DNA of 46,573 nucleotides from Modestobacter excelsi (lineage in GTDB: Bacteria; Actinomycetota; Actinomycetes; Mycobacteriales; Geodermatophilaceae): NCBI RefSeq assembly GCF_005930495.1, contig NZ_SJEX01000037.1, positions 1-46,573 on the forward strand, given 5' to 3'. The first letter of the stretch is position 1. Every line of letters begins with the position of its first letter. A program made the translations under genes and the position numbers. The notes under the pieces are model-generated. The model was not told where the DNA came from. It made no database searches and saw only the letters and a list, made by a program, of their open reading frames with translations. Positions 24,045-44,728 of this stretch are shown here, one piece after another.

Positions 24045-24278
24045 ATGATCGAGCTGGTCCTCAACGTGCTGCTGGTCCTCACCAGCGTGCTGCTGATCGT
24101 GCTCATCCTGCTGCACCGCGGCAAGGGCGGCGGTCTGTCGTCGATGTTCGGTGGCGCGGTCTCCTCCCAGCTGTCCGGCAGCTCCGTGGTGGAGAAGAAC
24201 CTCAACCGGCTGACCGTCTTCGCCGGACTGGTCTGGGCGGTCTGCATCGTCGGTCTGGGCATCCTGCTCAAGGTCTGA
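24045..24278 (+). CDS. secG: Preprotein translocase subunit SecG
   Basis: A 77-aa membrane protein with two transmembrane segments (residues about 2-23 and 55-75) joined by the family's Gly/Ser loop (HRGKGGGLSSMFGG). SecG assists SecYE and SecA in protein export across the inner membrane. The ATG has GGAG sequences upstream (24025-24030 and 24033-24036). Position after the tpiA region is the usual actinobacterial setting, although here a binding-protein gene intervenes. Confidence 0.95.
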   Translation: MIELVLNVLLVLTSVLLIVLILLHRGKGGGLSSMFGGAVSSQLSGSSVVEKNLNRLTVFAGLVWAVCIVGLGILLKV

Positions 24279-24340
24279 CGGAGGACCCCCTCTCTCCCCA
24301 CCTCCGCAGGCTCAGGGCGGGCCCCTGAGAGGGGGCCGGG
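24279..24340 (+). terminator. Terminator-like repeat element, copy 1 (after secG)
   Basis: A 9-bp stem (24286-24294 with 24327-24335) closes a 32-nt loop containing CGCAGGCTC and GCGGG. The same flank (GACGRAGGAC) and nearly the same loop, with a different stem, recur after sufT at 44040-44100. It probably acts as the secG terminator. Confidence 0.6.
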
Positions 24341-24874: not shown

Positions 24875-24911
24875 GGAGGACCCCCTCCCCGGCCCGGGGA
24901 GGGGGTCCTCC
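24875..24911. terminator. Bidirectional terminator between rbpA and pgl
   Basis: Two perfect 18-nt arms (24875-24892 and 24894-24911) around a single C. It starts 3 nt after the rbpA stop and ends 2 nt before the pgl stop, so it fills the whole gap and can serve both strands. Confidence 0.85.
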
Positions 24912-44039: not shown

Positions 44040-44100
44040 CGAAGGACCCTTCCGCCCCCCACCCCTCGCAGGCTCGGAGCGGGACCCTGCGGAAGGGCCA
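44040..44100 (+). terminator. Terminator-like repeat element, copy 2 (after sufT)
   Basis: A 9-bp stem (44047-44055 with 44089-44097) closes a 33-nt loop nearly identical to that of the element after secG, while the stem sequence differs. The pair defines a repeat family. It probably terminates the suf operon. Confidence 0.65.
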
Positions 44101-44113
44101 TCCGCTGGTTGCG

Positions 44114-44728
44114 TTGCTCGACCAGCTGGCCGTTGGCGCAGCGCCGGCGGCTGACGCGAGCGTGACGACAGTGCCCGCACCCTCCGGGGTGCGGGCACTC
44201 GTCGTCGGTGGCACGGCGTGGCACGTCGTCGCGGCCGACGTCGACCCGGCGTGGGTCGCCGCACAGGTGGCGCGCGACCGGATCGAGGTCCCGCTCGGTG
44301 CCCGGTTCCTGGCGGCGCTCGCCGACCGGGTCGGCGCCGAACCGGGCGTCCTCGACGGGCTGCTCGTCGCGCCGTCGGCGCCGCTGCGCCCCGGGGTCGA
44401 GCTGGTCCAGGCGCAGCCGTCGGCGCACCCCCGGGTGCAGCGGTCGCTGCGGCACCGCACCGACGTCCGGGTGTGGACGACCCCGGACGCCGACGGGCTG
44501 GTCACCCTCGGCCGGGGCGTGTGCGGCCGGTGGGAGGTCGGCGTGGAGGTGGAGCCGTCCGCGCGCGGACGGGGGCTGGGCACCGCCCTGGCGGTGGCCG
44601 CCCCCGGCCTGGTGCCCGACGGTGCGCCGGTCTGGGCCCAGGTCGCGCCGGCGAACACGGCGTCCCTGCAGTCCTTCCTGGCCGCCGGCTGGCGCCCCCT
44701 CGCCGCCGAGGTCCTCTTCACCCCCTGA
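44114..44728 (+). CDS. GNAT-like N-acetyltransferase
   Basis: About 204 aa. The C-terminal half has the acetyl-CoA-binding pattern (EVEPSARGRGLGTAL) and the family end NTASLQSFLAAGWRPLAAEVLF; the N-terminal half (WHVVAADVDPAWV) looks like the related actinobacterial regulatory-type acetyltransferases. No ATG is available: the family N-terminus (LLDQLAVGAAPAAD) points to TTG 44114, with GTG 44162 as an alternative. It lies 17 nt after a terminator-like hairpin and has no visible promoter or ribosome-binding site. Substrate unknown. Confidence 0.75.
   Translation: MLDQLAVGAAPAADASVTTVPAPSGVRALVVGGTAWHVVAADVDPAWVAAQVARDRIEVPLGARFLAALADRVGAEPGVLDGLLVAPSAPLRPGVELVQAQPSAHPRVQRSLRHRTDVRVWTTPDADGLVTLGRGVCGRWEVGVEVEPSARGRGLGTALAVAAPGLVPDGAPVWAQVAPANTASLQSFLAAGWRPLAAEVLFTP

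Follow-up and report, generated by a model that had tools for sequence, protein, structure and literature searches.

The hairpins after secG and sufT of Modestobacter excelsi belong to a repeat family of the Geodermatophilaceae, probably a REP-like mobile element

The window (the whole stretch of 46,573 nucleotides of Modestobacter excelsi DNA that was analysed) contains two hairpins, located directly behind the genes secG and sufT, that raise the question of whether such structures end the transcripts of the preceding genes or are copies of an element that moves. The first-pass annotation had placed them at 24279-24340 and 44040-44100, considered them terminators that form a repeat family, and proposed that their conserved loop could be the trace of a mobile element. 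The features of the window that bear on this question are as follows.

24276..24278, plus strand: stop codon TGA of secG (SecG, PF03840), followed by 3 nt (24279-24281) before AGGACC (24282-24287)
24279..24337, plus strand: element copy after secG, 74.2 bits with covariance model R1, ending with GGCC
24286..24294, plus strand: 5' arm of the outer stem of the secG copy, CCCCCTCTC, pairing with 24327-24335
24304..24313, plus strand: constant loop of the secG copy, CCGCAGGCTC (consensus TCGCANGCTC)
24327..24335, plus strand: 3' arm of the outer stem of the secG copy, GAGAGGGGG
24875..24911, no strand assigned: plain palindrome between the convergent genes rbpA and pgl (both identified by Pfam), carrying GGAGGACC at each end and lacking an inner stem-loop
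44037..44039, plus strand: stop codon TGA of sufT (FeS_assembly_P, PF01883), followed by 3 nt (44040-44042) before AGGACC (44043-44048)
44040..44099, plus strand: element copy after sufT, 84.7 bits with R1
44047..44055, plus strand: 5' arm of the outer stem of the sufT copy, CCCTTCCGC, pairing with 44089-44097
44062..44065, plus strand: 5' arm of the inner stem of the sufT copy, CCCC, pairing with GGAG at 44076-44079 with one C.A mismatch
44066..44075, plus strand: constant 10-nt loop of the sufT copy, TCGCAGGCTC
44076..44079, plus strand: 3' arm of the inner stem of the sufT copy, GGAG
44089..44097, plus strand: 3' arm of the outer stem of the sufT copy, GCGGAAGGG

The two hairpins were borne out at these places: the 9-bp outer stems of the secG and sufT copies have different sequences and each pairs along its whole length, and the orthologue of the sufT copy in genome G008 shows a compensatory change in its outer stem (CCCCTCCGC/GCGGAGGGG). 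The secG copy is slightly decayed, with one inner-stem base missing, and its minimum-energy fold on the gene strand is not the family hairpin. Compared with shuffled sequences, the fold stability of the two window copies gave a weak signal (gene strand: z of +1.31 and -1.48; opposite strand: z of -0.32 and -2.14). The name sufT is that of the first-pass annotation; Pfam gives FeS_assembly_P, with a NifU_N protein encoded just upstream, and the window protein is 100% identical to a protein of Geodermatophilaceae bacterium URHA0031. Judged by eye from the element-free Klenkia and G007 sequences, the frame of the next gene (window 44040-44190) seems to overlap the sufT stop, and the window copy, also by eye, lies within this conserved frame and keeps it open.

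The palindrome between rbpA and pgl shares GGAGGACC with the element and lacks its inner part, as had been described, and is kin to the element in design and not a full copy. The AGGACC motifs at its two ends are located 4 and 3 nt from two stop codons, one foot motif for both genes.

That the hairpins belong to a repeat family was confirmed in the host genome, where the pattern CGCAGGCTCRGRGCGGGNCCCTG, allowing 3 mismatches at most, gave 159 matches vs 4 for the reversed control. The covariance model R1, constructed from the 34 copies of alignment A1 (which match it by construction), detected at least 150 copies, the weakest of these with E=1.7e-6; this figure corresponds to the best 150 of 11,581 first-look candidates and is a lower bound. 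In a sample of 825,613 bases of the host genome, composed of the window and stretches of six long contigs and therefore not a random draw, 41 R1 matches were found, 3 of them below 40 bits, and the other 38 extrapolate to about 240 copies for the 5.26-Mb genome if the sampled contigs are typical. Two simpler markers were uninformative: the plain 9-mer CGCAGGCTC gave 148 matches vs 106 for its control, and a 17-mer within the window alone gave 6 matches with 5.4 expected. At the gathering cut-off no match to Rfam 15 was detected in the window, and permissive scans produced at both copies only matches far below it.

The exact core of the element is present in 99 of 112 Geodermatophilaceae genomes, with 0 to 181 copies per genome. 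Whole-genome searches covered one order, and among its 397 genomes the core was found in 71 of 75 within the family and, with one match each, in 5 of 322 outside it, a control-like figure given that the reversed control matches 3 of the same 322. R1 matches were detected in 39 of 79 genomes (host genome included) and in none of the 32 among these that come from other families, the copy counts being lower bounds based on the best ~66 matches per genome. The 13 family genomes from which the exact core is absent comprise nine of genera g6, g8 and g10, which are small and fragmented, together with G039, G079, G025 and G142. Genome G025 still yields 5 R1 copies, thus absence of the core is not absence of the element; in G039 R1 detected 0 copies. 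Both G039 and G079 are near-complete genomes, and same-genus sister species of each hold tens of cores.

Read on the gene strand, the element follows the order stop codon, 3 nt, AGGACC, outer stem of ~9 bp, CCCCCA, inner stem of 4 bp, loop TCGCANGCTC, inner stem, CGGGNCCCTG, outer stem and GGCC, an anatomy drawn in part from 59 strict pattern matches. It measures ~60 nt, or ~76 nt with a tail like GTTCCAGCACGTCACC, which was found at a fixed place in 36 of 124 parsed copies (up to 5 of 16 mismatches) and at a control place in 0 of 122; a tail-motif scan with 3 mismatches had been too loose (118 vs 23 for the control in the host sample, among the matches listed) and was replaced by this fixed-position test. 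A second 3' half occurs soon after the tail in 20 of the 36 tailed copies, and at locus L132 one copy is followed by two more 3' halves, each of them tailed. In most copies the inner stem consists of 4 covarying bp, to which an A.C mismatch plus three C-G pairs are usually added. The unusually conserved loop pointed out by the first-pass annotation is real in its centre, the 10 constant nucleotides TCGCANGCTC; most of the 32 nt that had been taken as loop form a second paired region, which covaries. Two loci (L128:1867-1933 and L138:1777-1842) carry the inner loops GCGCTCCGC and GCGCTGCGC, respectively, in place of TCGCANGCTC, with unchanged outer design, and perhaps represent a second subfamily.

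Selection for the fold, which had been proposed from the two window copies, agrees with the covariation found in the 124 parsed copies and in alignment A2 (41 copies). In A2, which was aligned to the model and hence leans toward it, 13 of 19 pairs show changes in both partners, against a shuffle mean of 9.5, and 2 of 500 shuffles reach 13; the covariation score was 0.358, whereas shuffles gave 0.120 and sliding by 1-3 columns gave 0.102 or less. The parsed copies (58 from the window genome) were kept only if 6 or more pairs of the outer stem were Watson-Crick, a filter that favours pairing there. In this set the outer stem has no strand bias (10 G.T vs 10 A.C), whereas the inner stem on the gene strand has 31 A.C vs 2 G.T, with fixed A.C at two positions in 102 and 118 of the 124 copies. 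As an A.C on the gene strand corresponds to a G.U/G.T wobble on the other, this asymmetry points to a fold of the opposite strand. In addition, the opposite strand has the lower predicted energy for 124/124 copies (means of -37.9 vs -29.9 kcal/mol), part of which arises from base composition since that strand is G-rich. Altogether, there is moderate evidence that selection acts on the fold of the strand opposite the gene, which would fit a single-stranded DNA step better than a role in mRNA.

The placement of the copies was analysed in a set of 115 that required the core pattern, 62 of them from the window genome (loci L172-L238 and copies less than 320 nt from a locus start were skipped). A coding-like frame ends within 17 nt upstream in 104 of the 115, with TGA as stop codon in 94, TAG in 7 and TAA in 3, and the distance between stop and AGGACC is exactly 3 nt in 75 copies, 63 of which have NGA as spacer. 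According to a codon-usage gene finder, the nearest upstream predicted gene is on the same strand for 37 of the 41 sample matches. An inverted element lies directly past the stop codon of sufT at locus L161, breaking the orientation rule. The register is striking in the genus of the window; in Geodermatophilus obscurus (12 copies in 400 kb) only 3 of 12 copies are at 3 nt and 4 of 12 have no stop within 29 nt, a looseness that argues against a strict family-wide rule. The covariance-model search proposed with the first-pass annotation returned numerous copies across the host genome and its relatives, most of them after stops and covarying; they are neither confined to the window nor a set of coding-sequence segments lacking covariation.

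Sampled intergenic DNA contains, on both strands, 3027 TGA triplets that are not stops vs 605 TGA stops. With so many non-stop TGA available and the copies at stops, TGA as a DNA target word is insufficient, and it was rejected as the sole cause of the placement.

The proposal that the element is the trace of something mobile found support in insertion polymorphism at orthologous sites. The site after sufT is filled in the window genome and G008 and empty in G007 and three Klenkia; among the best 80 of 583 sufT loci, an element occupies 6 of the 14 that belong to the family by name, in one case inverted, and none of the 66 others. Conversely, the gap between tkt and tal holds a copy in G007 and none in the window genome or G008. 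Two sites of contig C92 have a copy in the window genome and are empty in G006 and G008, and at one of these, by eye, the copy stands in place of the gene's final codons and provides a TGA. At another site the window genome and G008 are both filled with quite different stems. An element follows secG in 19 of 50 loci, which comprise the 30 best matches and 20 chosen by hand, several of the latter from genomes with few copies (107 genomes had a match in all); none was present there in G039 and G079.

Nested copies, placed in an arm or in the inner loop of another element, were recognised by eye at locus L251 after secG (G120) and in G006 contig C77 near 37,500. At L317:445-508 of G007 an element is located inside a coding region, replacing part of a gene that continues in G008 (frame judged by eye). 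No target duplication was recognised in the few filled/empty pairs, the boundaries of which are blurred by divergence; the termini of the element are the stem arms themselves, and at some sites target DNA was replaced, unlike in clean transposition. Any individual empty site could reflect loss rather than a site that was never filled. Nesting, together with the mixed state of the sites, shows movement of the copies. Vertical inheritance as the sole account was rejected, as orthologous sites are empty, filled or occupied by a different variant.

The family is present in high copy number in many species and combines a constant 10-nt loop enclosed by two covarying stems, a post-stop register, orthologous sites that are filled, empty or differently filled, nesting and tandem 3' halves. 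Based on these observations, it is probably a non-autonomous, REP-like mobile hairpin of the Geodermatophilaceae. Copies would spread, with the help of some mobilising enzyme, through a single-stranded DNA stage during which it is the strand opposite the gene that folds. In mRNA, the foot of the hairpin would lie ~4-6 nt past the stop codon and, given the position of the ribosome entry relative to a stop codon in the A site, would be near that entry while the stop is read. As excerpts of PMC12306157 (citing Liang 2015) describe stalling of ribosomes by E. coli REPs placed within 15 nt of a stop, and as the foot would stand near the ribosome entry, any effect on the host would likely concern translation termination and mRNA decay, and not the end of the gene's own transcription.

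Profile searches of 108 family genomes gave no support to mobilisation by Y1 or Y2 transposases or by a reverse transcriptase. Y1_Tnp (RAYT, PF01797) matched 0 of 108 at E <= 0.001, with a control that was positive in 5 of 14 genomes, E. coli included. Y2_Tnp gave one strong match in the 108 genomes, in a genome without the exact core, its control being positive in 0 of 14. RVT_1 occurs in 47 of 108 genomes with no correspondence to copy number, and G004, of the same genus as the window, has 160 exact cores and no RVT_1. The window genome encodes two RVT_1 domains (G000:C139:28265-28915 and G000:C102:45974-46348).

How the register with the stop codons arises admits another reading, to which we assign a low probability, namely that insertion or survival is keyed to stop codons as such (TGA, TAG or TAA, 3 nt before AGGACC) and not to a DNA word, either by transposition coupled to translation termination or because an RNA element acting on terminating ribosomes was spread by a mobiliser.

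The original assignment as terminators of the preceding gene was not sustained. In its best form, which we consider rather unlikely, these would be lineage-specific terminators devoid of a T-tract that spread by copying and whose constant loop binds a termination factor. Terminators without a T-tract are frequent in high-GC Actinobacteria, and the reading would agree with a GC-rich hairpin right past stop codons, with the existence of plain palindromes on the GGAGGACC foot (rbpA/pgl) and with the gaps in which the element is found, in the sample 7 of 43 convergent and 21 of 197 codirectional ones between 60 and 1000 nt long (32 of 38 sample copies were assignable to a gap). Against it, in none of the 124 copies does the best 8-nt window just past the hairpin reach 5 T, and T counts on the gene strand resemble the intergenic background; these were counted directly, as standard terminator scans, which came out empty, admit loops of 3-8 nt only and are blind to this hairpin. 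Moreover, the G007 copy in the tkt-tal gap falls between genes whose window counterparts, separated by 33 nt, begin a row that by gene order is operon-like (transketolase, transaldolase, G6PD, OpcA and 6-phosphogluconolactonase), and 9 of the 21 codirectional gaps with an element are shorter than 100 nt in total, mostly filled by the element itself and with scant space for a new promoter. The wobbles of the inner stem, favouring the other strand, and the secG genes of G039 and G079, which do without the element, also speak against this reading. Weak or partial termination on the gene strand may nevertheless occur.

A terminator acting on the opposite strand, which would halt antisense or convergent transcripts before they reach the 3' end of the gene, is improbable. 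That strand is predicted to fold better, T is more frequent in its 3' flank TCCTTCNTCA (at least 3 T in 8 nt in 103/124 copies vs ~14% of sampled intergenic windows), and adjacency to stop codons would suit a guard of gene ends; against this, 5 or more T in 8 nt occur in only 2 of 124 copies, some of the T are the complement of the stop codon itself, and the element is found in 21 codirectional vs 7 convergent gaps, no opposite transcript being expected between codirectional genes.

Similarly improbable is a 3'-UTR RNA element with little true mobility that acts in translation termination, by pausing or read-through, and whose 3-nt spacing is under selection. The extension of the register across TGA, TAG and TAA, the location of copies at the stops when 3027 non-stop intergenic TGA stand against 605 stops, and the ribosome stalling by REPs within 15 nt of stops mentioned in part of PMC12306157 would be in line with this idea. 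A needed function is hard to reconcile with the polymorphism among near relatives and with species that have very few copies; the A.C mismatches, which weaken the gene-strand hairpin, and the nested copies also count against this reading. An attC-like site of a tyrosine recombinase is very improbable: attC sites are likewise located behind stop codons and recombine through their folded bottom strand, in agreement with the position and strand asymmetry found here, but the copies are dispersed beside housekeeping genes, the attC core boxes were not seen in A1, and there was no Rfam match at the gathering score.

Among known systems, the probable mobile hairpin described here is closest in kind to REP-like and MITE-like palindromic repeats, beside which it is set as a variant since the family genomes searched gave no match to the enzyme that defines REP systems and its anatomy is different. 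REP hairpins have a GTAG-type tetranucleotide at the foot; here the foot in the 34-copy A1 is, by inspection, GAAGGACC/GGCC, with no GTAG. The two covarying stems, one inside the other, with their constant loop of 10 nt, and the lack of a Y1 transposase match in 108/108 family genomes, further separate it from the REP/RAYT system. As outlined in sections of PMC12306157, REPs resemble it in being short extragenic palindromes with hundreds of copies, some just past stops; yet ~11% of E. coli REPs are within 15 nt of a stop, compared with a 3-nt register in 75 of 115 copies here.

The BOX, RUP and SPRITE repeats of Streptococcus pneumoniae belong to another host phylum and differ in sequence, while the stop-codon register and the lack of a gene-strand T-tract characterise the present family. 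In BOX the number of sub-units varies. According to parts of PMC10969869, these small repeats nest in each other, as the Geodermatophilaceae copies do, and the palindromic elements of Rickettsia can be inserted in frame into coding sequence, a likeness to the one G007 coding-region copy; they differ from the family studied here in that 104 of its 115 copies are within 17 nt past a stop. The ERIC/IRU repeats of enterobacteria, as portrayed in extracts of PMC2229807, are likewise found in transcribed intergenic DNA and have an orientation-dependent effect on mRNA, but they measure 127 bp, generate a target duplication and have TA termini, against ~60 nt and no duplication recognised in few pairs in this case. 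With intrinsic terminators the element shares a GC-rich hairpin just past genes, and it differs from them in the missing gene-strand T-tract, the constant loop, the copy in an operon-like gap and its mobility. A literature search, beyond whose reach lay most subscription papers, found no description of the element.

The family adds to the Actinobacteria a high-copy, family-wide mobile hairpin, copies of which annotators may misread as terminators. Genomes G039 and G079 represent natural knock-outs that are useful in the hunt for the mobiliser. The register with stop codons offers a handle on the question of whether REP-like elements near stops are placed there by insertion or are kept by an effect on the ribosome, and the range of 0 to 181 cores per family genome, together with filled and empty orthologous sites, makes that question testable.
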